Shown piece after piece: positions 5,875 through 41,576 of a DNA stretch of 41,576 nt (its first letter is position 1; every line of letters begins with the position of its first letter). The translations under genes were made by a program, and so were the position numbers. Below the pieces are notes generated by a model. The model made no database searches and had not been told where the DNA came from. It saw nothing but the letters and a program-made list of their open reading frames with translations. Source of the stretch: a virus; IMG/VR virus record IMGVR_UViG_3300025065_000015, positions 1 through 41,576 of that record. One strand, given 5' to 3'.

Positions 5875-5999
5875 GCCTTGAGGAACGGATATGGGAGATA
5901 CTCGCTGTAAATGTGAGCAATGTACGTTTGCAGAATCCCTACTACGGGGAGAACTACCAGAATAGGACACTTTTGTACACTTTGCGTGGGATCGGATGA
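5871..5999 (+). CDS. Small coupled protein, 42 aa
   Basis: ATG overlaps the preceding stop (ATGA) and its own stop overlaps the next ATG in the same way, so translation is probably coupled. It begins Met-Ser-Leu-Glu-Glu-Arg-Ile-Trp-Glu-Ile, similar to the start of the 41-residue protein at 7963 (Met-Thr-Leu-Glu-Arg-Leu-Trp-Asn-Leu). Its middle contains a 21-nt segment found again at 7935-7955. Function unknown. Confidence 0.5.
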   Translation: MSLEERIWEILAVNVSNVRLQNPYYGENYQNRTLLYTLRGIG

Positions 6000-6077: not shown

Positions 6078-6839
6078 GTGCAACTTAACTTTGATGGCAA
6101 AACCGGTGTAGATACAGCAATCGAGAGGTTGCAAGAGTGGGAGCCACCACGAGGGTATTGGGTTGGTTATTCAGGGGGTAAGGATTCGGAGTTAACGCTA
6201 GACTTAGTTAAAAGGGCGGGGGTTAAGTTTGATGCACATTATAGCGTGACAGGAATAGACCCGCCTGAACTTGTCCACCACATCAAAAACTACCACCCTG
6301 AAGTGGAGTTCCATCTTACGCGTCCTAGTTTCTGGTCAGTGTTACCTAAACGTGGCATCCCTCAAAGAAAAGGTCGTTGGTGTTGTGAGATGTTGAAGGA
6401 AAGTTGTGGGGAGAACCGTGTAATTGTGACGGGTGTTAGGTGGGCTGAGTCACCGCGCAGAAGAAGCACCCGCAAGGTGGTTGAAGAATGTTATCGAGAC
6501 TCAACAAAGATATATGTCAACCCGATCATTGGTTGGGAAGATTATCAGGTGTGGGATTACATCAAGAAAAACAACCTGCCTTATTGCTCACTGTATGACG
6601 AGGGTTGGGAACGCTTAGGGTGTGTGATGTGTCCGATGGTGTCTAGTGATAAAGCCAAGAGGGAGATGGAGCGTTGGCCTAAGATAGCTAATTTATGGAA
6701 GCGTGGTATTTACAAGTATTGGGAGAAAGGGACGGAAGGCACAAAGAAATTTGAAACACCTGAAGCCTTGTGGCAATGGTTCATATCTCGCAAGGGACAC
6801 GGTAAGAACGAAGACCAAATGAAATTCCATTTTGAGTAA
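6078..6839 (+). CDS. PP-loop ATPase, PAPS-reductase / DndC-like family, 253 aa
   Basis: GTG start after the GGGGGTATAAG ribosome site. The PP-loop Ser-Gly-Gly-Lys-Asp-Ser lies at residues 32-37. Further family features are Thr-Gly-Ile-Asp-Pro-Pro-Glu, Arg-Trp-Cys-Cys-Glu-Met-Leu-Lys near 99-107, Gly-Val-Arg-Trp-Ala-Glu-Ser, Asn-Pro-Ile-Ile-Gly-Trp, a Tyr-Gln-Val-Trp-Asp-Tyr-Ile helix and Gly-Cys-Val-Met-Cys-Pro. Such proteins adenylate a substrate and often move sulfur. Relatives include CysH and DndC (DNA phosphorothioation). No DndA/B/D/E-like genes are in this window, so the phage may alter DNA or RNA in another way or support host sulfur metabolism. A methyltransferase gene lies 1.2 kb downstream. 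Confidence 0.85.
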   Translation: MQLNFDGKTGVDTAIERLQEWEPPRGYWVGYSGGKDSELTLDLVKRAGVKFDAHYSVTGIDPPELVHHIKNYHPEVEFHLTRPSFWSVLPKRGIPQRKGRWCCEMLKESCGENRVIVTGVRWAESPRRRSTRKVVEECYRDSTKIYVNPIIGWEDYQVWDYIKKNNLPYCSLYDEGWERLGCVMCPMVSSDKAKREMERWPKIANLWKRGIYKYWEKGTEGTKKFETPEALWQWFISRKGHGKNEDQMKFHFE

Positions 6840-7150: not shown

Positions 7151-7356
7151 TGAGTTGGACATACAAAGTTAAATACGACAGTGATGAGTGTGCCGACAGC
7201 TATAACGATACCTACGTCATAGTGGTGACGATTGTAGGGACAACACAACACCCAATGGGATACTGTGAACTATGTAGTAAGCGGGGTCATATAGTAATGT
7301 GTATCTTTGAGAACTGCCCCTACGAGGAAAAGGAAGAAGACCGATTAATGTGGTGA
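7147..7356 (+). CDS. Mosaic small protein with Cys pairs, 69 aa
   Basis: Start ATG 7147 overlaps the previous stop and has GAGGGGGA upstream. Residues 18-33 are encoded by two exact blocks (24 and 23 nt) that also occur in the tail adaptor gene at 33478-33525, but there in the opposite order. A further 18-nt stretch recurs at 7463-7480 in another frame. The C-terminal half has Cys-Glu-Leu-Cys and a second Cys pair, perhaps a zinc ribbon. The gene looks partly assembled from copied fragments, and function is unknown. Confidence 0.5.
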   Translation: MMSWTYKVKYDSDECADSYNDTYVIVVTIVGTTQHPMGYCELCSKRGHIVMCIFENCPYEEKEEDRLMW

Positions 7357-7912: not shown

Positions 7913-7962
7913 TGCCCTATTGAATCTCTACTAAGGGGAGAACTACCAGAATAGGTTAAACG

Positions 7963-8088
7963 ATGACATTAGAACGGCTATGGAACCTCGTTAAAGAACT
8001 TGCAAGAGAGTGTTTTCATGGGCGCATCATAGTCAGCTTTGAGAACGGAAAGGTAACGCATGTACGGAAAGAAGAGACAATAAAATGA
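7963..8088 (+). CDS. Short DUF2292-like protein, 41 aa
   Basis: ATG 7963 to a TGA that overlaps the methyltransferase start (ATGA). The C-terminal half, Gly-Arg-Ile-Ile-Val-Ser-Phe-Glu-Asn-Gly-Lys-Val-Thr-His-Val-Arg-Lys, has the strand-turn-strand plan of small DUF2292-type proteins (about 40-60 residues), whose role is unknown. The assignment is from memory of the family pattern. It may assist the downstream enzyme or be only a coupling leader. Confidence 0.55.
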   Translation: MTLERLWNLVKELARECFHGRIIVSFENGKVTHVRKEETIK

Positions 8089-8723
8089 AACCTTATTTCC
8101 AAGACGATTCAGTAACCATCTATCATGGGGATTGCCGAGACATCCTCCCGAACCTTGAGCCTGTGGATTTGGTGCTGACTGACCCGCCTTATGGGATTAA
8201 CCATGAGTCGCACGGACAAAGATTTGTCCGTGCCTACAAGTGTGCCAACGATGATTCTTTACAAGTAGCATTGAATGTACTTGACACTTTAGTGAACATA
8301 CCCCAAATCGTCTTTTATTCTCCATATAATCCAATACTGTTCGACTGGCGTTCAGTATTGGTGTGGGTAAAAGGGGAAAACTTTGGGATAGGCGGGGACA
8401 GGGCTACATGTTGGAAGAGGGATTTTGAGTTAATAGGTGTAAGAAACAACCCTCCATTGGAAGGTAAAAGGGATTCTGCCGTCTTAAGATATTCAGCAGT
8501 GAAAAACGTTGTTCATTTTTGTGAAAAACCAGTGCCTTTATTACGCTACCTGTTACGCAAAACCCCATCACGGATAACCCTCGACCCCTTCATGGGAAGT
8601 GGCACAACACTGAGAGCAGCCAAAGACTTAGGACGCAAAGCAATCGGAATTGAGATAGAAGAGAAATACTGTGAGGTAGCAGCCAAACGGATGTCACAGA
8701 CTGTAATGAATTTAGAATGTTGA
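8085..8723 (+). CDS. DNA methyltransferase, N4-cytosine/N6-adenine type, 212 aa
   Basis: Catalytic motif IV Asp-Pro-Pro-Tyr-Gly is at residues 33-37, and the AdoMet-binding motif Asp-Pro-Phe-Met-Gly-Ser-Gly-Thr-Thr at 167-175, in that order. This fits the beta group of amino-methyltransferases. It is short, with a small target-recognition region between the motifs (about residues 40-160). No cognate restriction enzyme is adjacent, so it is an orphan enzyme, probably shielding phage DNA from host restriction or marking it. A terminator follows directly, closing this transcript. Confidence 0.92.
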   Translation: MKPYFQDDSVTIYHGDCRDILPNLEPVDLVLTDPPYGINHESHGQRFVRAYKCANDDSLQVALNVLDTLVNIPQIVFYSPYNPILFDWRSVLVWVKGENFGIGGDRATCWKRDFELIGVRNNPPLEGKRDSAVLRYSAVKNVVHFCEKPVPLLRYLLRKTPSRITLDPFMGSGTTLRAAKDLGRKAIGIEIEEKYCEVAAKRMSQTVMNLEC

Positions 8724-9732: not shown

Positions 9733-9878
9733 ACATTCCCTCAGACGCAACACCGGAAGAGGCTAGGGCCATCCTTCGTGAATACTATGGGCGTATGTGC
9801 CCCAAGTGGGACGCTGAATCGAGAATAGTATCCGGTTTAGAAGACGAGGATAAGCAAGACAAGGCGCATTTGAATTGA
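9720..9878 (+). CDS. Small acidic protein, 52 aa
   Basis: The ATG lies within the end of the membrane peptide gene. The product has 'Thr-Pro-Glu-Glu-Ala-Arg-Ala-Ile-Leu-Arg-Glu-Tyr-Tyr' and an Asp/Glu-rich tail. It is the last rightward gene before the convergent minus-strand cassette. No family recognised. Confidence 0.45.
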   Translation: METINIPSDATPEEARAILREYYGRMCPKWDAESRIVSGLEDEDKQDKAHLN

Positions 9879-9933
9879 TGTTTGCAACCACCAATAAGAC
9901 CCAATACAGCCTTTAATGATGGTTAGGGGCAGC

Positions 9934-9953
9934 AAAAAACCCTCCGAAGAGGG
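9934..9953 (-). terminator. Terminator of the minus-strand cassette
   Basis: On the minus strand CCCTC, loop TTCG and GAGGG are followed by six T. It lies about 130 bases beyond the last minus-strand gene and would stop transcription coming from 11.4 kb. The rest of 9879-10084 holds no gene I can support. It contains a short GGTTAG-like direct repeat near 9971-9988. Confidence 0.75.
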
Positions 9954-10084
9954 CTTGATGCTCGACTGTTGAGGTTAGGGTTAGGGTCTGAATACTCGGC
10001 AAGAAACCCCTGTTGGTTGGAATATGTCGCCCTCTTTTTGTTTAGTGCAGAGTAAACACTAATTTATCATTACAATAATGGTGT

Positions 10085-10360
10085 TCATGCTTCACCATCC
10101 GTGGTTCCATTTATTAATCGGCATATATTCCGGATGCAACTGGCATTCGCCTTATCATTCCAGCTATCAGCCCATGCAGTGATAGCGTCTCTCAATTCAT
10201 CGTGAGTTTGGGTGAGTGTGCGTTGCTCTGCCTCGCAGAGATAAAGGCAGTTATCAAACAGGTCTCGTTTAATCTCGTCAGTTATTTTTTCATCCCTATC
10301 CATACCGCATAATGCCCATTCATCAAAATCATCCGGCTCAAATGTTGCTGTGTATTCCAT
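10085..10360 (-). CDS. Acidic hypothetical protein, 91 aa
   Basis: Minus-strand ATG with AAGGAGGAAACGAA upstream, the best ribosome site in the cassette. The product is clearly acidic (over twenty Asp/Glu against about nine Lys/Arg) and helical. Small acidic phage proteins can mimic DNA or block host enzymes, but nothing here proves it. Last gene of a four-gene operon running leftward. Confidence 0.7.
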   Translation of the reverse strand: MEYTATFEPDDFDEWALCGMDRDEKITDEIKRDLFDNCLYLCEAEQRTLTQTHDELRDAITAWADSWNDKANASCIRNICRLINGTTDGEA

Positions 10361-10382
10361 TTCGTTTCCTCCTTATCCTTTA

Positions 10383-10505
10383 TTAGTTCTTCTCGAACTG
10401 TTTTTTATCTTGGCTCCGGTGTCCACACTTCCGACACCAACGGTCATTTAGGGTAGTGACAATCTGTTTAGAATTGCATTTAGGACATTGTAATGTAATG
10501 CTCAT
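10383..10505 (-). CDS. Zinc-ribbon mini-protein, 40 aa
   Basis: ATG overlaps the stop of the upstream gene (ATGA). The sequence has Cys-Pro-Lys-Cys near residues 8-11 and Cys-Arg-Lys-Cys-Gly near 24-28, the two knuckles of a minimal zinc ribbon, followed by a basic tail. It may bind nucleic acid or stabilise a partner protein. Tight coupling suggests it is made with the 109-residue protein. Confidence 0.65.
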   Translation of the reverse strand: MSITLQCPKCNSKQIVTTLNDRWCRKCGHRSQDKKQFEKN

Positions 10506-10831
10506 AGTTCACGCTCCAACTGTTCTATACCATCCCAATCTATATCATCAACGTCAGGCCCGGCCTCCCATATTTCCCTATACTCGTTGTGGTAGGAATC
10601 CCATACTGTGATGTAAACAGATGGGCACATCGTATAACATAGATACGAGCCTTGACACCACACACACGCATCACAGTTATCATCGTCTGGTTCAGGTGGC
10701 GGGACGAGCCAATAATCGTGGATACTATTATTCCCGAGATATTCCCTCATTAGCTCGCGGTGTTTAGATTCGTCTGGTTGCCCCCCGTCACTATCAAATA
10801 ACCCTACTTGCGACCAATGTATTTTAGACAT
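10502..10831 (-). CDS. Cysteine-rich acidic protein, 109 aa
   Basis: ATG 10831 follows AAAGGAGGAGAA, which is better than the earlier in-frame ATG at 10885. The centre has Asn-Cys-Asp-Ala-Cys-Val-Trp-Cys, then Tyr-Leu-Cys-Tyr-Thr-Met-Cys, a likely zinc or metal site, and the ends are acidic. The DNA for this cysteine cluster (10610-10678) is duplicated beside the integrase and repressor genes. Unknown function. Confidence 0.65.
   Translation of the reverse strand: MSKIHWSQVGLFDSDGGQPDESKHRELMREYLGNNSIHDYWLVPPPEPDDDNCDACVWCQGSYLCYTMCPSVYITVWDSYHNEYREIWEAGPDVDDIDWDGIEQLEREL
10610..10678. repeat. Duplicated 69-bp segment, intact copy
   Basis: Bases 10610-10649 are identical to 40072-40111, and 10651-10678 are identical to 40216-40243. 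Here the two parts are adjacent, one base apart; at 40 kb they are separated by 104 bases. Confidence 0.95.
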
Positions 10832-10885
10832 TTCTCCTCCTTTAATTTGATCCTGAAATAGTTCTCTAACAAAATCAGTTTTCAT

Positions 10886-11398
10886 CTAGTGCCCAAACAT
10901 CGGGTTAGTTTGGTGGTGGGTGTCTCCAATAGTGGTAGGTGAGAAAGTATCTAGTCTCTTGCCGTGGTAGTTGTCGTTACTGCCACAGAAGGGGTAAGAT
11001 CCCCTTAAAACAACGCCACCTTGATAACCCAATTTCACCTTCATTGGAAATTCAGGGCCGTGACCATTGGCAGGGGTTAGCACGTCAGACGTTCCACTAG
11101 CCCCCAACATGACAGCACTAGCACACTGGCAATGAGCCGTCTTACCTGATGGGCTGACGCGAGAGACTACAACATAGTCAATGTTCGTTTGGTCGTAACC
11201 CCACGAAGTATAAAAATAGTCTCCCGGTTTCACTAGCGAGTCTTTGTGGCCGTTCCCGTTTCCCTTGGCCTTGCTTGCTTCGTCAATCATTTGACTGGCC
11301 TGTTCTTTGGTCAATGTCCATTCTCTAGTGTCTTTCTTCAGGAGAACGTGCAAAGCCCACAGTTGACGTCTGGTTGCCGGTTCGTTTGGATTTAGCAT
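10886..11398 (-). CDS. Hypothetical protein with N-terminal 'ATxRQLWAL' module, 170 aa
   Basis: ATG 11398 has GGGGTGAT upstream and follows a strong promoter; longer in-frame starts would run through that promoter. Residues 6-46 (Ala-Thr-Arg-Arg-Gln-Leu-Trp-Ala-Leu ... Leu-Thr-Lys-Glu-Gln-Ala-Ser-Gln-Met-Ile) form a small helical module resembling DUF3072-like segments seen in phage proteins. Residues 65-170 look beta-rich with a Cys pair (His-Cys-Gln-Cys), possibly a separate binding domain. First gene of the leftward cassette, so probably well expressed. Confidence 0.7.
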   Translation of the reverse strand: MLNPNEPATRRQLWALHVLLKKDTREWTLTKEQASQMIDEASKAKGNGNGHKDSLVKPGDYFYTSWGYDQTNIDYVVVSRVSPSGKTAHCQCASAVMLGASGTSDVLTPANGHGPEFPMKVKLGYQGGVVLRGSYPFCGSNDNYHGKRLDTFSPTTIGDTHHQTNPMFGH

Positions 11399-11425
11399 TG
11401 TATCACCCCCTATATAAGATGACTC

Positions 11426-11454
11426 ATAATAACACACACGCGCACACATGTCAA
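11426..11454 (-). promoter_or_regulatory. Near-consensus sigma-70 promoter for the minus-strand cassette
   Basis: Minus strand: TTGACA, 17-base spacer, TATTAT. The predicted start lies about 20 bases before the ribosome site of the 170-residue gene. The spacer is an alternating GT/GC run. Confidence 0.85.
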
Positions 11455-11498
11455 GTAAAGATTTTATAAACGTGAAACACATCACAAAAAGGAACGAC

Positions 11499-11624
11499 AT
11501 GATCACACACAAAGGATACAGGAGATTACCAGGTTGTGAGATGATTCTGTTTGCCCGGAGAATACCAGTTTGGCAATTCAGAGGCTTCAACGGTTACAAC
11601 ACAGTCTGGTTTTATGAGAACTGA
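11499..11624 (+). CDS. Small basic protein before terminase, 41 aa
   Basis: ATG 11499 follows AAAAAGGAACGAC, and the TGA shares its last base with the terminase small-subunit ATG. The product is basic and aromatic (Arg-Gly-Phe-Asn-Gly-Tyr-Asn-Thr-Val-Trp-Phe-Tyr). Coupling suggests it is a genuine first gene of the late operon. No family recognised. Confidence 0.5.
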   Translation: MITHKGYRRLPGCEMILFARRIPVWQFRGFNGYNTVWFYEN

Positions 11625-12028
11625 TGGCAAAGAGGAACAAAAGAGGCCAACCACCTAAATATAAAACAGCCAAGGAATTGATTGACGCTGTGCATGATTA
11701 CTTTGTAAAAGGTGTGCCAAAGAGAAAGGTTGTTATAGGACCATCAAATAACAGAACAACGGTATTGATTCCAGTGCCTACAATAACAGGCTTAGCTCTT
11801 TACCTGGGATTTTGTAGCCGACAATCATTCTATGACCTGGAGAAAAGAAAAGAATTCTCTTACGCTATAAAAAGGGCACGTAGTTTTATTGAGTGTGAAT
11901 ACGAAGAACAACTACAAACAAACAATGTAGCTGGCGCGATCTTCGCATTAAAGAATATGGGATGGGTAGACAAGATTGACAACCAAGTGACCGGAGATTT
12001 TACCGTAACCGTCAAAAGAGATGGTTAA
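11624..12028 (+). CDS. terS: Terminase small subunit, 134 aa
   Basis: This is the packaging protein that recognises phage DNA and hands it to the large subunit. The N-terminal 50 residues are basic with a helix-turn-helix. Then 'Pro-Thr-Ile-Thr-Gly-Leu-Ala-Leu-Tyr-Leu-Gly-Phe-Cys-Ser-Arg-Gln-Ser-Phe-Tyr' and 'Ile-Phe-Ala-Leu-Lys-Asn-Met-Gly-Trp' give the signature of terminase small subunits that pair with this large-subunit type. Length is usual for the family. The large subunit follows after 283 bases, an unusually long gap. Confidence 0.85.
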   Translation: MAKRNKRGQPPKYKTAKELIDAVHDYFVKGVPKRKVVIGPSNNRTTVLIPVPTITGLALYLGFCSRQSFYDLEKRKEFSYAIKRARSFIECEYEEQLQTNNVAGAIFALKNMGWVDKIDNQVTGDFTVTVKRDG

Positions 12029-12311
12029 AATGGCGAAAAGGTAAAAATGCTCACCGGCTGGATTAACCATTTTGTTCAAAAGGGGGATATATGGCAATCC
12101 TCCAATTCGGGTTGCATGTTCACAAGATATGCCCATTTAAGTAGGTAAACAAAACCCCGGAACACATCAACAATCCCTCGAATTAACCTCTTCAGGTTGA
12201 CAATAACAGTGTAGGTACACGCTTGCCTACCATTATCCACGAGTGAAACACATAACAAATAACTTCCATAATGGTTATAGTGCGACCCAAACACTAAAAA
12301 GGTGAAAAACT
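12029..12311. other. 283-base gap between terminase genes
   Basis: No convincing gene. A 33-codon frame at 12047-12148 has AAAAGG upstream, and a 17-codon frame at 12091 has a strong AAAGGGGG site; neither resembles anything known. A TTGACA at about 12196 has no good -10 box. A packaging (pac/cos) site would be expected near the small-subunit gene and could lie here, but nothing in the sequence proves it. Confidence 0.4.
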
Positions 12312-13622
12312 TTGCCTACTGAAACACCCAACTATGACGCTCATCTAAGAAGCACAGCCAACCATCCGAGGCAACAGGCGTTTATAGAGTCTAAGGCCAA
12401 ACGGAAGATCATCCGGGCAGGTAGACGATTCGGTAAGACGGTTGGAGTGGCCACCAGGGATGCCGAGTCGTTTGTTGATGCCCTTGAAGAGAACCGGGAC
12501 AAGCGCATCCTTTATGCAGCTCCTACCACAACACAGGTAGATACCTATTGGTACGAGATCAAGAAGGCTCTCAGGGAGCTTATAGACGGCAGGGTGCTCA
12601 AGATCAATGAGACCGAGCATTATGTTGAACTACCCAACACAAGGCTAAGGATCAAGGCTAAGACCGCTTGGAACGCTGATTCTTTACGTGGTGATTACGC
12701 TGACGAGCTGACTCTGGATGAGTTTCAATTGATGTGCGAGGACGCATGGGAAGAGGTAGGTCAACCCATGTTGCTGGACAATGACGGCAATGCCACCTTT
12801 ATCTACACTCCCCCGTCTTTGGTCTCAACCGGTGTCAGTAAGGCCCGAGACCCTCGACATGCTGCCAAGCTATATGCCAAGTATGCAGATGGCCATGATC
12901 CTGATTGGGAGACCTTTCACGCATCATCTTATGACAATCCCACTATAAGCAAGGAAGCATTGGACCGGATCACTAAAGACATGTCTCAAGACTCCTATCG
13001 CCGTGAGATATTGGCTATTGATGATGACGAGGATGAGGAAAGGCTTGTCTTCAAGATGTTCGATGAGAGGACACAGGTCATTGACCCGATACCATTCCCT
13101 AAAGAGTACATGAGGTTCACTGGGCATGACTTTGGTGCATCTAACCCGGCAGCATTGTTTGTGGCTCAGGACCTTGCCAGTAATCTATTCATTTATGACG
13201 AGTATCTTCCGGGTCCGGGCTTTTCTACACATCAGCATACAGAAGCGTTTAAGGCAAGGACTGAGGGACTGACGGTACTCAAGCGGATAGGCGGCAATCT
13301 GACATCTGAGGATGAAATAAGACAGGGGTATGCGTCCCATAGTTGGCCTATCACAGCTCCCAAGTGGGATAGAGTCAACAAGCAACTTGAAATAGTCATA
13401 GCCCTGATGGAGAGGAACCGGGTGTTTATTACCCGGAACTGCGTGCATCTGTTGGGAGAGATCAGGAATTGTTTATGGGACGTGGACAAGGACAACGTGA
13501 GGCTGGACAAGATCAAGAACGAGTCACGGTATCACTTGTTAGCTTGTGTGCGTACTCTGTTGAGTGACTTCCCGGTAGAGACAGCCATACAACCAACCAA
13601 CCTTAGAGCGCACAGGTATTAG
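12312..13622 (+). CDS. terL: Terminase large subunit, 436 aa
   Basis: ATPase and nuclease that packages DNA into the prohead. TTG start preceded by AAAAAGGTGAAAAAC. Walker A Gly-Arg-Arg-Phe-Gly-Lys-Thr is at 37-43, and Walker B with the catalytic Glu, Leu-Thr-Leu-Asp-Glu-Phe, near 133-138. The RNase H-like nuclease domain starts near Gly-His-Asp-Phe-Gly-Ala (271-276), with further conserved acidic residues in 'Leu-Trp-Asp-Val-Asp'. Length fits the family. Expected partners are the portal at 16.3 kb and the small subunit upstream. Confidence 0.93.
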   Translation: MPTETPNYDAHLRSTANHPRQQAFIESKAKRKIIRAGRRFGKTVGVATRDAESFVDALEENRDKRILYAAPTTTQVDTYWYEIKKALRELIDGRVLKINETEHYVELPNTRLRIKAKTAWNADSLRGDYADELTLDEFQLMCEDAWEEVGQPMLLDNDGNATFIYTPPSLVSTGVSKARDPRHAAKLYAKYADGHDPDWETFHASSYDNPTISKEALDRITKDMSQDSYRREILAIDDDEDEERLVFKMFDERTQVIDPIPFPKEYMRFTGHDFGASNPAALFVAQDLASNLFIYDEYLPGPGFSTHQHTEAFKARTEGLTVLKRIGGNLTSEDEIRQGYASHSWPITAPKWDRVNKQLEIVIALMERNRVFITRNCVHLLGEIRNCLWDVDKDNVRLDKIKNESRYHLLACVRTLLSDFPVETAIQPTNLRAHRY

Positions 13623-15359: not shown

Positions 15360-15559
15360 ACGGAAACCACAAAGATATTAGGATACAAGGCAGTATATGG
15401 GGTGATGAGTTAAAAATAGAACTGGATAAATGTGCTTTTCGGCTGCATAAAGGAGTGGACTATATTACACGCAGAATCATAGCTAAATGTTGCGAAACGT
15501 CGGCACTTGTTAATATATGTCGACGTTTTGGCACAAAGGGGAGCTATGGCAAGCAGTAA
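15356..15559 (+). CDS. Small hypothetical protein with patchwork 3' end, 67 aa
   Basis: GTG overlaps the fibre-like gene's stop. The first 50 residues look like a normal soluble protein with three Cys. The last codons run into a 39-bp sequence copied from, or to, the start of the phosphoesterase gene (37931-37969), read here in another frame. The natural C-terminus may therefore have been lost. An inverted repeat (AACGTC ... GACGTT) lies in 15496-15527. Confidence 0.4.
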   Translation: MNGNHKDIRIQGSIWGDELKIELDKCAFRLHKGVDYITRRIIAKCCETSALVNICRRFGTKGSYGKQ

Positions 15560-15576
15560 AACAAAAAACCTATTAA
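15538..15576 (+). repeat. 39-bp exact copy of the phosphoesterase start region
   Basis: Identical to 37931-37969, including the ribosome site and first nine codons of the phosphoesterase gene. Confidence 0.95.
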
Positions 15577-33081: not shown

Positions 33082-34323
33082 ATGCCCGATTGGTCAGACG
33101 ATGAATTTACCCAAATATCAACAACAGTTATCCAGGAGATAAGCGCAAAAGCTCCTTCTATTAAAGTAAGGCGCATGACTACCACAGGGGGAACCAGACG
33201 CCCGTATAATCTCGACCTCGACCTTTCATACTTCACTGACAATGTTTCGCGGGTGAGAGAAGTGATTCTGGTTGAGTGGCCGTATCGAAGCGACCCGCCT
33301 GTTTATCGTAACAAAAAATGGAAAGAGGATGAAAAGATCACGATGGAGACGTACTCTTGCCCCTCCACCGGGCTTGAGATTACCGCGGTAGCGGACAACG
33401 GAGACGGTATCACGGTCAATGTCACGCTTGATGTTTCAGGAACGGATAACACGGACCACGAATTACAGACAAACGACGTGGTGACGATTGTAGGGACAAC
33501 CAGCTATAACGATACCTACGTCATAACCAGAGTGAGCGCGAGTGTGTTTAAGATCACAGCTACCTATGTAGCCTCAGAAACCGGGAATATCGGTGAGATC
33601 GTAGGACTCACGCTTGCAGAGGACCATACTTGTGGTGATACTGCTGCCTCAAACACCATGAACCCTGATCAAGAACAGGTAACGATTCAAGGCATGATAG
33701 CTCATGCGTGGGAGCACTGGCTTGAGGAAAGTAGAGATGAAGTCAACAACGCTGTTACAACTATCGGGACGGCTGAGACAGCAATAGGGCTTTCAACTGC
33801 AAGGGTGACTCAAGCTCTGGCTGACGTAGCTAGTGGAAGGACGGAAGCTGCTAAGGTATCGGATATTGTTGACGATGCTGCAACAGAAATCGGATTGATT
33901 AAAGCTGAAGTTGACCAGGCTGTTACTGACCTTGATAGCGGTCGCGCCTTACTCAACACCAATACCATAGTTGGTAAAGCCTCTCTTGATTATATCTCTC
34001 AGGCCAACGGTGAATTGAATACTGCTGTTGGGTTTTTCAGATCCGCACAAAGCTATCTTGGACAGGCCAAAGCAGATGAATCGATAGCCGCCTCATACGC
34101 TGGTCTTGCTGGAAGAGAATTACAGGTTGCGGCTACCAATATCAATAAAGGTGCCGCTTATCTGTCTGAAGTTAACGCAAGGCTCAATGCTGCAACAAAG
34201 ATTATTCAGTTATCCCAACGGGAATGTGAGCGCAAGATGGCACTGTATCGTAAAGAACTTTTGAGATTGGAGTATGAATACAAGAATAAAATGTCTCGTT
34301 ATAACCGTTTGTATGCACGATGA
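33082..34323 (+). CDS. Head-tail adaptor with Ig-like insert and coiled-coil tail, 413 aa
   Basis: ATG after AAAGGAGTAAAGCT. The first 90 residues ('Val-Ile-Leu-Val-Glu-Trp-Pro-Tyr ... Pro-Pro-Val-Tyr') fit a connector or adaptor protein. Residues about 93-188 are a beta-domain with Asp-Val-Val-Thr-Ile-Val-Gly-Thr-Thr-Ser-Tyr-Asn-Asp-Thr, a common Ig-like insert. From about 205 onward the chain is a long Ala/Thr/Asn-rich coiled coil ending in a basic helix. The whole could form a neck or tail stem. Overlaps the next gene by four bases. Confidence 0.6.
   Translation: MPDWSDDEFTQISTTVIQEISAKAPSIKVRRMTTTGGTRRPYNLDLDLSYFTDNVSRVREVILVEWPYRSDPPVYRNKKWKEDEKITMETYSCPSTGLEITAVADNGDGITVNVTLDVSGTDNTDHELQTNDVVTIVGTTSYNDTYVITRVSASVFKITATYVASETGNIGEIVGLTLAEDHTCGDTAASNTMNPDQEQVTIQGMIAHAWEHWLEESRDEVNNAVTTIGTAETAIGLSTARVTQALADVASGRTEAAKVSDIVDDAATEIGLIKAEVDQAVTDLDSGRALLNTNTIVGKASLDYISQANGELNTAVGFFRSAQSYLGQAKADESIAASYAGLAGRELQVAATNINKGAAYLSEVNARLNAATKIIQLSQRECERKMALYRKELLRLEYEYKNKMSRYNRLYAR
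33478..33525 (+). repeat. Two adjacent blocks duplicated in swapped order at 7198-7244
   Basis: Block A, 33478-33500 (23 nt), and block B, 33502-33525 (24 nt). In the early gene at 7147, B (7198-7221) precedes A (7222-7244). Every base of each block matches. Confidence 0.95.
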
Positions 34324-37875: not shown

Positions 37876-37969
37876 CAATATAAAACGGGAACGATGTAAG
37901 GCTTGCGGAATAACGAGGAAATGTAACAAGGGGGAGCTATGGCAAGCAGTAAAACAAAAAACCTATTAA
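37778..37969 (+). CDS. Alternative overlapping zinc-finger-like frame, 63 aa
   Basis: Runs in another frame across the previous candidate. It shows Cys-Pro-Ile-His and Arg-Cys-Lys-Ala-Cys-Gly, which could bind zinc, and continues into the phosphoesterase start. A shorter start at ATG 37860 would avoid most of the overlap. Only one of the two overlapping frames need be real. Confidence 0.35.
   Translation: MNVRKSYPHVIDPTCPIHPSGIHQRKTVMIGSDNIKRERCKACGITRKCNKGELWQAVKQKTY
37931..37969 (+). repeat. 39-bp segment copied at 15538-15576
   Basis: It contains the GGGGGAG ribosome site and first codons of the phosphoesterase gene. The other copy is a stray fragment in the head-gene region. Confidence 0.95.
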
Positions 37970-38943
37970 TCAGTTACCTAGAGAAATATCCAGACTTGCC
38001 AAACCGAACTTTAGCACGGATGGTATTCGGGCAACACGGCCACTTATTCAAAGACCTGGAGCAAGTTCGGTCGAACATCAGGAATTACCGGGGCCGCAAC
38101 GGGGATTGTAACCGCAAGTATAATTTCGCGGATAAGCGATTTTATCTACCGGAACCAACACAGAACAACCCGTACTCACTACCCCCTTATATCCCGTTGA
38201 ACTATAAGGATTACACCATCCCCGCCGAGTTAAAACGTGGGCTTATCCTGGCCGATACACAGATTCCGTTTCAGGATAATAAGGGCTTGTCAGTCGTATT
38301 GGACAGGGCCAAGCAATTCGACCCGGACTTCTTGATCCTCAACGGTGACATTATAGACTTTTATCGTCTATCAAAATTCCGGACAGACCCGACGGTTGAC
38401 GATACCAAGGAAGCGATAAACGCCCTAATTCAATTCCTGATGGCGTTACGAACATTGTTTCCGGACGCCGAAATCGTTTATAAACTCGGCAACCATGATG
38501 ACAGATTCTATTATTATATGCAGCAAAAGGCTCCGGAGTTTTTCGGTATTCCCGAATTCCGAATAGAGTCAGTGCTGCACACTGATAAACTAGGAATCGA
38601 GGTTGTTGGGGATAAGCGGAGGATACGAGCTGGCAAACTGTATATTATCCACGGTCATGAATTCTGGCAATCGCTTAACAATCCGGTAAATCCAGCCAGG
38701 GGTTTATATCTAAAGGCCAAGAGGTCATCTTTATGCGCCCACCACCACCAGACATCAGAACACACCGAGCCGGATATCGGGGATGATCTGATAACGTGCT
38801 GGTCGATTGGTTGCTGTTGCCAGTTGCACCCGGAATATATGCCTATTAATAAATGGAACCACGGATTTGCCCTGATGGAAAAAACTTCGGGCGGTAATTT
38901 CCAACTGGACAACATGAGGATTATAGACGGGGAAATAGTCTAA
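37939..38943 (+). CDS. Calcineurin-like metallophosphoesterase with N-terminal HTH-like part, 334 aa
   Basis: Two-metal phosphoesterase motifs appear in order: Ala-Asp-Thr-Gln at 105-108 (Gln in place of the usual His), Asn-Gly-Asp at 135-137, Gly-Asn-His-Asp at 184-187, His-Gly-His-Glu at 238-241 and His-His-His at 268-270. Residues 1-60 (Leu-Ala-Arg-Met-Val-Phe-Gly ... Val-Arg-Ser-Asn-Ile-Arg-Asn-Tyr-Arg-Gly) look like a small DNA-binding helix bundle. Substrate is unknown; nucleic-acid end processing or nucleotide signal removal are options. Last gene of the late region before a strong terminator. Confidence 0.85.
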   Translation: MASSKTKNLLISYLEKYPDLPNRTLARMVFGQHGHLFKDLEQVRSNIRNYRGRNGDCNRKYNFADKRFYLPEPTQNNPYSLPPYIPLNYKDYTIPAELKRGLILADTQIPFQDNKGLSVVLDRAKQFDPDFLILNGDIIDFYRLSKFRTDPTVDDTKEAINALIQFLMALRTLFPDAEIVYKLGNHDDRFYYYMQQKAPEFFGIPEFRIESVLHTDKLGIEVVGDKRRIRAGKLYIIHGHEFWQSLNNPVNPARGLYLKAKRSSLCAHHHQTSEHTEPDIGDDLITCWSIGCCCQLHPEYMPINKWNHGFALMEKTSGGNFQLDNMRIIDGEIV

Positions 38944-40071: not shown

Positions 40072-40243
40072 GATGTAAACAGATGGGCACATCGTATAAC
40101 ATAGATACGAGGTTGTCAATTTTGTTACCGATTGTTTATGTGGATTTAGATAGGAGATTCCGGGGTTCTGTGTCAGGTGATTTTGAGAATTCTGACGGAA
40201 GGTTGTTGGCACAATCTTGACACCACACACACGCATCACAGTT
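40072..40243. repeat. Split copy of the 69-bp segment from 10.6 kb
   Basis: Bases 40072-40111 equal 10610-10649, and 40216-40243 equal 10651-10678. The 104 bases between them are unique. The second part encodes Asn-Cys-Asp-Ala-Cys-Val-Trp-Cys in the repressor's C-terminal tail, in the same reading frame as in the 109-residue gene. Confidence 0.95.
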
Positions 40244-40585
40244 GGGATTTTCTATAGACTCTAATCCAGAGTCACCTGTGTTACCGCTACACCAATCCCC
40301 AGCACGTCTAAAATGTAAGTGTCGAAATGTTGGATTCTGGGTCAACTCGTTTGTCTGCCCCATTATATAGGATACACGTTGCCCTGTCACGTAGGCTATC
40401 TTAAAAGCCCTCTCGATATCTAGGTCGGCCTCGCCACTTTCAATCCTCTGGATGATTGTTTGGCTTACCCCTATCTCCTTCCCTAAAATCACCTGACTTA
40501 GCCCCGCCTTAATACGGCAATCTTTCACCCTGCCAGGGATTTCCGCCACAACCCGATCTATTTCCGGTACTGGATTCATAACCAT
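40136..40585 (-). CDS. XRE-type (CI-like) repressor with attP-spanning C-terminus, 149 aa
   Basis: ATG 40585 follows GGAGGTGAAAC; the longer frame upstream lacks such a site. Residues about 18-75 are a classic helix-turn-helix of the XRE family (Ala-Gly-Leu-Ser-Gln-Val-Ile-Leu-Gly-Lys-Glu-Ile-Gly-Val-Ser-Gln). Residues about 95-107 are encoded by a 5' tRNA-Gln fragment (40265-40301), and 116-123 by a copy of the cysteine cluster from the 109-residue gene. There is no LexA-like peptidase domain. It would silence the early promoter on its right. Because the attachment site lies in the gene, the prophage form should have a different C-terminus. Confidence 0.8.
   Translation of the reverse strand: MVMNPVPEIDRVVAEIPGRVKDCRIKAGLSQVILGKEIGVSQTIIQRIESGEADLDIERAFKIAYVTGQRVSYIMGQTNELTQNPTFRHLHFRRAGDWCSGNTGDSGLESIENPNCDACVWCQDCANNLPSEFSKSPDTEPRNLLSKST
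40257..40301 (-). other. attP: Probable attP: 5' half of tRNA-Gln(CUG) plus core palindrome
   Basis: Minus strand 40301-40265 reads as tRNA-Gln positions 1-38: TGGGGAT acceptor strand, TG, a D-arm with GTG/CAC stem and AGCGGTAA loop, then anticodon arm strand GGTGA and loop CTCTGGA with anticodon CTG. The expected TCACC 3' strand is absent and the sequence diverges. Over the same loop, plus-strand 40257-40273 GACTCTAATCCAGAGTC is an inverted repeat with a 5-7 base centre, like a tyrosine-recombinase core site. Together with the adjacent integrase this marks the attachment site. Confidence 0.7.
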
Positions 40586-40650: not shown

Positions 40651-40679
40651 ACCTTACCATAAATTGTTGCAATTGTCAA
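40651..40679 (-). promoter_or_regulatory. Repressor promoter
   Basis: Minus strand TTGACA (40679-40674), 17-base spacer, TAAGGT. The -35 is perfect and the -10 weak, as often seen for regulated repressor promoters. Confidence 0.6.
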
Positions 40680-40716: not shown

Positions 40717-40745
40717 TTGACGGTTATTACATATTGTGGTATTGT
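40717..40745 (+). promoter_or_regulatory. Early rightward promoter
   Basis: TTGACG, 17-base spacer, TATTGT, 26 bases before the first early ATG. The AT-rich interval 40683-40770 holds no gene and separates it from the leftward repressor promoter. Confidence 0.7.
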
Positions 40746-40771: not shown

Positions 40772-40948
40772 ATGAAGCAAGCTGAAATTATTAAATCCAT
40801 CGGTTTTCCCCAAGACCTCCACAAAATTATTGAACTCGATGCACAAAACGAAACTCGTAGTTTCCCTCAACAGGTCAGACATATTTTAGCACAGCATTAT
40901 AAGGAAGTGGCTAAAGATGTACAAGTACAAGAAAGTAAAGCTATCTGA
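40772..40948 (+). CDS. Arc-like ribbon-helix-helix regulator, 58 aa
   Basis: ATG after AAGGGGTGATTAAAAC, first gene of the early operon. 'Ile-Gly-Phe-Pro-Gln-Asp-Leu-His-Lys-Ile-Ile-Glu-Leu-Asp-Ala-Gln-Asn-Glu-Thr-Arg' then 'Phe-Pro-Gln-Gln-Val-Arg-His-Ile-Leu' is the strand-helix-helix order of Arc/MetJ proteins. Placed opposite the repressor, it is a candidate Cro-like or antirepressor-control protein. Confidence 0.7.
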   Translation: MKQAEIIKSIGFPQDLHKIIELDAQNETRSFPQQVRHILAQHYKEVAKDVQVQESKAI

Positions 40949-41018: not shown

Positions 41019-41576
41019 TTGATAACCACATCTTTTGAACTAGCAAGGCAAGCGGGTGCGTGTCAGGAAAGTTACAGAAAATACGCTAAACATATTGGTG
41101 GGATAAAGAAATTTGGTGAAAGCACCCCGATCGATGTAGTTGATGTACTTGACGTACTTGGGTTGAGAGATACCTTATGGGTACTTAGTTGTGCAGTCCC
41201 ACAAGCACAAAGAGAGGGTGTAAACAAATTACTTAGGTTATTCTCTTGTGAGTGTGCGGAGCATACGCTAAAGAATTACGAGAACTGGGAACCTGATGAC
41301 ACAAGGGTGCGAGACAGTATCAATGTGGCGCGACGATACATTGATGGTGACGCAACATTGAAAGAATTGAGGTCGGCAGAGTCGGCAGCAAGGTCGGCAG
41401 CAAGGTGGGCAGAGTCGGCATGGTCGGCAGCAGAGTCGGCAGCAAGGTGGGCAGCAGAGTCGGCAGCAGAGTCGGCAGTAAGGTGGGCAGGGTCGGCAGC
41501 ATGGTCGGCGGAGTCGGCAGCAGAGTCGGCAGCAAGGTGGGCAGAGTCGGCATGGTTGGCAGCAGAGTCGGCAGAG
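41019..41576 (+). CDS. Immunity-protein-like protein with Ala-rich repeats (partial)
   Basis: TTG 41019 follows AAAGGAGAATGGATAA. Residues 45-118 ('Leu-Arg-Asp-Thr-Leu-Trp-Val-Leu', 'Leu-Leu-Arg-Leu-Phe-Ser-Cys-Glu-Cys-Ala-Glu', 'Pro-Asp-Asp-Thr-Arg-Val-Arg-Asp-Ser-Ile') fit the helical domain of putative Imm-5-like immunity proteins, which commonly continue into Ala/Trp/Arg repeats. From 119 to the window edge it is repeats of Ser-Ala-Ala-(Arg/Glu/Trp). The end is probably the frame at 2-172. Function may be toxin immunity or phage exclusion; unproven. Confidence 0.65.
   Translation, partial: MITTSFELARQAGACQESYRKYAKHIGGIKKFGESTPIDVVDVLDVLGLRDTLWVLSCAVPQAQREGVNKLLRLFSCECAEHTLKNYENWEPDDTRVRDSINVARRYIDGDATLKELRSAESAARSAARWAESAWSAAESAARWAAESAAESAVRWAGSAAWSAESAAESAARWAESAWLAAESAE
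41370..41576 (+). repeat. Degenerate codon repeat (right part)
   Basis: More than twenty units of tcg-gca-gca with agg, tgg or gag as the variable codon. The same repeat begins the window, showing that both ends come from one gene. Confidence 0.92.

Follow-up and report, generated by a model that had tools for sequence, protein, structure and literature searches.

The window, by which we mean the whole 41,576-nt stretch of virus DNA that was analysed, carries an XRE-family repressor gene, a tyrosine integrase gene downstream of it on the same strand and a short divergent gene on its other side (Table 1). The repressor ORF starts at an ATG at position 40585 with GGAGG upstream and stops at 40136. 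Its helix-turn-helix domain (HTH_3, E 8.5e-10) covers about residues 16–85, and in a PHROG search the ORF matched repressors. The integrase gene, reported as complete in an earlier, preliminary description of the window, was found to be intact. Its XerA/XerD-like match starts at residue 25 or later and its SAM-like region at residue 30, and no separate arm-binding domain was found in this protein. Candidate promoters were located by consensus matching; the one assigned to the integrase lies between the attP and the integrase gene, so the integrase would keep its promoter after integration.

Table 1. Features at and around the candidate attachment site (coordinates of the window)
Feature	Position	Strand	Evidence
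Duplicated segment of gene 10502-10885, copies in the att arm at 40072-40111 and 40216-40243	10610..10678	-	
Armless tyrosine integrase, 306 aa	39089..40009	-	PF00589, E 1.1e-24
Candidate integrase promoter, TTGACA-N17-TACGAT	40091..40119	-	7th best genome-wide
XRE-family repressor gene, viral form, 149 aa	40136..40585	-	ORF and RBS, HTH_3, PHROG repressors
Repressor tail predicted to be lost on integration, 42 residues LESIENPNCDACVWCQDCANNLPSEFSKSPDTEPRNLLSKST and stop	40136..40264	-	Computed junction; no AA-type tag
17-bp palindrome GACTC-TGGATTA-GAGTC, overlapping the phage-specific core end	40257..40273	.	Sequence
Putative attP common core, nt 1–38 of tRNA-Gln(CUG), in the same orientation as the repressor	40264..40301	-	38/38 identity to the bin.164 tRNA
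Promoter-like GTGACA-N17-TATAAT within the repressor ORF, from which the rebuilt tRNA may be transcribed	40362..40390	-	Consensus match
Candidate repressor promoter, TTGACA-N17-TAAGGT	40651..40679	-	Consensus match
Candidate divergent early promoter, TTGACG-N17-TATTGT	40717..40745	+	Consensus match
First divergent gene, 58 aa, no family, cro-like position	40772..40948	+	

Within the repressor ORF, the minus strand from 40301 to 40264 corresponds to nucleotides 1–38 of a tRNA-Gln(CUG) gene, one nucleotide more than the 37 recognised previously. This tRNA half is read in the repressor frame, where it encodes ..A-GDWCSGNTGDSG.., and in linear numbering its anticodon CTG occupies 40269–40267 and its 7-nt anticodon loop 40271–40265. 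ARAGORN detected no complete tRNA in the window. The viral attP RNA gave an unconvincing tRNA-like fold (z −1.4 to −1.8), and an Rfam search returned no match. The palindrome that had been put forward as a core-type site is real. Its 7-base spacer, TGGATTA in the phage, differs at one base from TGGATCA in the candidate host described below, and because of this mismatch the spacer is less likely to be the overlap region. As judged from the two sequences, the overlap more likely corresponds to the anticodon loop CTCTGGA, which is identical in phage and host; the anticodon loop is the usual overlap position of this integrase class. A 13-bp exact inverted repeat, GTCAGGTGATTTT, flanks the attP (40172–40184 and 40485–40497), and CAGGTGA is also present in the core, with three of its six genome copies lying within 320 bp. 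We considered the inverted pair as arm-type sites and rejected it, as the integrase seems to have no arm-binding domain.

Homology of the repressor to those of other phages stops near residue 87, and the codon usage of the tail is ambiguous (−0.05 compared to +0.1 for real genes). The tail also holds a 28-bp piece that is present, in the same frame, in gene 10502-10885. It is plausible that the tail was recently assembled, because of this shared piece and the ambiguous codon usage. An AlphaFold model of the repressor, computed without an alignment, had a pLDDT of 32, too low to be of use. The end of the homology, the shared piece and the codon usage would suit a passive overlap, in which the helix-turn-helix domain functions on its own and translation continues through the tRNA half and the tail merely for want of a stop codon. 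We regard such an overlap as somewhat unlikely, since about 60 further open codons are expected by chance in only about 4–6% of cases by our estimate, and the same layout recurs, in functional form, in other phages.

Other short duplications were observed in the genome. The stretch of gene 10502-10885 that is contiguous over 69 bp is split by 104 bp in the att arm. The repressor stop codon falls in this 104-bp insert, as does the −35 box of the candidate integrase promoter, the −10 box of which lies within the copied 40 bp (40072–40111). Short patches of 34–49 bp with 94–98% identity are shared between distant genes (37926–37969 with 15533–15576, 38818–38866 with 10145–10097, and 5933–5966 with 7922–7955); one of them is inverted, and one carries the ribosome site and the start of gene 37939. 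At 33478–33525 and at 7197–7244, two blocks of 23 bp and 25 bp recur without mismatch and directly abut each other, but their order is exchanged; this looks like a 48-bp piece copied from a circularised or permuted form. From these sequence comparisons, short ectopic copies seem to accumulate in this genome.

The same phage is also represented by a second contig, IMGVR_UViG_3300006733_000172, which is 99.99–100% identical and runs from the end of the window into its start with 8 extra bases. As this contig crosses the window ends, the genome is circular or circularly permuted, with a length of about 41,584 bp. Both known copies of the phage are thus free forms. The second contig also reproduces the stretch in which the 33478 block copy falls. 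An ORF (41019–41576 joined to 1–195) has an Imm5-like match and, after it, long Ala-Glu-Ser/Ala-Arg-Trp repeats; it extends to the window end and probably over the circular junction. The repeat is also where the 8 bases absent from the window lie. Of the phage records listed, Methanosarcina virus MetMV has by far the closest relative of the terminase at 12312–13622 (41% identity, E 6e-59). The early region has PAPS reductase-like and DNA methyltransferase-like genes (6078–6839 and 8085–8723).

We searched 84,980 species genomes for the host tRNA, using an exact 40-mer and then a relaxed 35-mer pattern. The exact 40-mer had no match among these species, as it spans the TTA that is replaced by TCA in the host. 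The relaxed pattern matched a single one of the 84,980, the Chloroflexota MAG bin.164 (contig JABMQN010000112.1). Its tRNA-Gln(CUG) gene is complete and identical to the phage over 38 of 38 nt, the next base being T in the phage and C in the host. A host tRNA with a matching 5′ half, which the preliminary description had proposed looking for, was therefore found. Chance does not account for an exact 38-nt match with a tRNA that turned up in a single one of the 84,980 species. The tRNA-Gln(CUG) genes of relatives from the same order are clearly different (82% identical or less), so the match between the phage and bin.164 is specific. In these relatives the differing tRNA-Gln sequence adjoins tRNA-Glu, which prompted the idea that the bin.164 tRNA is a phage-modified copy; this was rejected, since the two strands of the anticodon stem differ in concert and the gene has ordinary chromosomal neighbours.

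Besides this tRNA gene we found no other Gln(CUG) gene in bin.164, which also has a Gln(UUG) gene. A promoter-like TTGCCA-N17-TATAAT lies 25 nt upstream of the tRNA-Gln(CUG) gene, into which no repressor-like ORF runs; together with its chromosomal neighbours, these observations indicate an unoccupied site. The closest relative of the phage integrase that we found is also encoded in bin.164 (37% identity, E 4.8e-41), and the two proteins share the C-terminal HSPADRL. This gene is the first of three consecutive recombinase-like genes (9802–13085 of their contig), and the contig that bears them also carries apparent phage terminase genes. Judged from two links to one MAG, the tRNA and the integrase relative, the host of the phage is probably a Chloroflexota bacterium.

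We computed the junctions by a script that joined the flanks of phage and host where their identity ends. On the repressor side, the computed attL consists of the repressor from 40585 to 40264 joined to ..CACCGGCCACAGGTTCGACTCC and contains a tRNA identical to that of the host. In the computed attR, TTAGAGTCTATAG follows the host promoter and the 5′ half of the host tRNA, and neither attR nor attP contains a tRNA. The rebuilding of the tRNA from a phage 5′ half and a host 3′ half, as had been proposed, is consistent with this computation. So is the proposed replacement of a repressor tail of about 40 residues: in the computed attL, the repressor loses LESIENPNCDACVWCQDCANNLPSEFSKSPDTEPRNLLSKST (42 residues) and gains SPATGSTPVSPASLRFTHCITRLSR (25 host-encoded residues). 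On the candidate host, its predicted length is thus 132 aa in the integrated and 149 aa in the viral form, with the same HTH DNA-binding domain in both.

An integrated copy or a real junction was found neither in the scans of viral contigs nor in 393 genomes of the MAG's class, and the relatives with anticodon-loop junctions that had been anticipated did not appear. The viral-contig scans were queried with the integrase, the repressor, the tRNA half and gene 10502, and returned only the second contig of the same phage; the scans match short exact peptides and would miss distant relatives. Among the 393 genomes, neither a repressor (E 1e-8) nor a further integrase (E 1e-30) was detected, and a terminase search in the MAG's order had no match. 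The searched collections held no relative beyond the second contig in which conservation of the tail or of the promoter could be seen. This absence of integrated copies, along with the fact that the two known contigs are free forms, one of them crossing the circular junction, is what one would expect if the tRNA half were a relic and the phage integrated elsewhere or never. We find this most improbable, because the exact 38-nt identity ends beside the anticodon loop, an intact integrase is adjacent, and the matching host tRNA occurs in the very genome that has the nearest integrase. We infer that the phage integrates at tRNA-Gln(CUG).

The orientation of the tRNA half has a consequence for the expression of the rebuilt tRNA. 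Since the 5′ half comes from the phage and runs in the same sense as the repressor, the host tRNA promoter would go to the other junction, and with this promoter moved away the rebuilt tRNA would have to be transcribed from phage DNA. The promoter-like site inside the repressor ORF is located 60 nt upstream of the tRNA half. It matches 11 of 12 consensus bases and ranks third among about 83,000 genome positions. None of 347 coding-sense windows of other genes scored as well, and synonymous recoding of the same protein segment reached this score in 1.5% of the trials (P 0.015). Consensus matching, with the synonymous null included, lends moderate support to this putative promoter.

A sense tRNA inside the ORF, in a candidate host that has tmRNA, could also work as a switch in the opposite direction: RNase P would cut the repressor mRNA of the lysogen within codon 95, leaving a non-stop mRNA, tmRNA tagging and less repressor. 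We consider this very unlikely. Translating ribosomes would compete with folding of the tRNA, a separate internal promoter could provide the tRNA, and a lysogen that lowered its repressor would defeat itself unless the effect were tuned.

Our preferred reading is that this is probably a temperate phage with its attP in the repressor gene, in a mirrored arrangement that ties both tRNA supply and the repressor tail to integration. The armless integrase would recombine within the anticodon loops of attP and of the host tRNA-Gln(CUG). At one junction, the 38-nt phage 5′ half and the host 3′ half would make an unchanged tRNA-Gln, and the host tRNA promoter would be left at the other. The rebuilt tRNA would most likely be expressed from the promoter-like site inside the repressor ORF, from read-through of the repressor promoter, or from both. 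The same event would exchange 42 repressor residues for 25 host-encoded ones (149 to 132 aa) and separate the repressor from the integrase, so that tail, tRNA supply and separation from the integrase are predicted to be coupled. We think that the attP is kept in the repressor unit mainly because this unit is active in the lysogen. That the tail swap also switches repressor activity is possible, but we incline against it. More doubtful still is a full mirror-image, integration-dependent circuit outside Actinobacteria, in which the repressor unit becomes the source of a host tRNA after integration, and in which the lysogen has repressor expression, repressor tail and supply of tRNA-Gln(CUG) bound to one another. 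If true, loss of repressor transcription or a mis-excision would cost the cell a tRNA. The arrangement predicts two forms of the repressor and a host tRNA driven by the phage.

Only a minority of islands in tRNA genes restore the tRNA from its 5′ side (159 of 3,919 in Islander), and the anticodon loop is one known crossover subsite (PMC4383910). In those 5′-side islands the element brings the 5′ part of the tRNA, as the attP does here, but in the present case this half lies within the immunity repressor gene and is read as part of it. The suicidal integrases of pTN3-like archaeal elements likewise have the tRNA 5′ half within an element gene, and the promoter of the element's integrase drives their rebuilt tRNA; a similar situation is described as rare in bacteria (PMC8371274). 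There the integrase is interrupted, whereas here the repressor is interrupted and the integrase remains intact. In the tRNA-dependent lysogeny of Fionnbharth, viability of the lysogen is tied to a tRNA provided by the phage (PMC10865867), as is predicted here. The core of Fionnbharth measures 10 bp and its tRNA gene is complete and separate, whereas the 38-bp core found here would restore the host tRNA. The combination typical of tRNA-dependent lysogeny, a short non-rebuilding core with a complete phage tRNA, is absent, as there is no tRNA gene in the window.

The closest likeness is to integration-dependent immunity, of which the defining features and the AA tag have been described (PMC9934374, PMC4557955). 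In actinobacteriophages such as BPs and Brujita, Gordonia phages of clusters such as CW, and Bifidobacterium prophages, the attP core also lies in the 3′ part of the repressor (PMC4557955, PMC9934374, PMC6109161). As here, the repressor is upstream of a co-directional armless integrase and next to a divergent early gene. Integration alters the repressor C-terminus in those systems, and is predicted to do so here. The Gordonia phages Walrus and Gudmit, used as controls for the layout, had the same order of repressor and then armless integrase. The BPs-type layout suggested in the preliminary description thus holds for the position of the attP, the gene order and the integrase, but the tRNA half and its strand are reversed: the repressors of Walrus and Gudmit contain a tRNA 3′ half in antisense, compared to the 5′ half in sense in our phage. 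In the Gordonia phages the host half keeps its promoter, while here the rebuilt tRNA would need one from the phage.

The second difference lies in the tags. In the BPs type, both repressor and integrase carry ssrA-like tags, and such a tag has been reported for the BPs integrase itself. The Gudmit repressor ends in SVAA, that of Walrus in AIAS, and the Gudmit integrase in LVA. The viral repressor of our phage ends in NLLSKST and its integrase in HSPADRL, neither of which is ssrA-like; the tmRNA tag of the candidate host is DDKVLVAA, and order relatives mostly have tags ending in ALAA or VAA. The destabilising tail expected from the earlier comparison thus has no counterpart in the C-terminus found. 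Immunity of the BPs and Brujita type, in which the viral tail is a degradation signal or an inhibitor and its removal by integration activates the repressor, would agree with the gene order, the attP in the repressor, the armless integrase, the divergent early gene and the predicted tail exchange. Given the tag sequences we judge it unlikely, with the limit that they argue against an ssrA-type signal and leave room for another kind of degron. Because the tags are absent, we do not file this phage as a member of the BPs type; the layout is common to both, and the mode of action may be related. In the incomplete literature that we searched, attP-in-repressor systems are known only from actinobacterial phages and have been proposed as an ancestral form of the genetic switch. 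BPs-type hosts are actinobacterial, and the candidate host here belongs to a different phylum. A case in a probable Chloroflexota phage, with the opposite tRNA half and strand and with no tag, would suggest an independent origin of the layout and a driving force that may go beyond proteolysis of the repressor.
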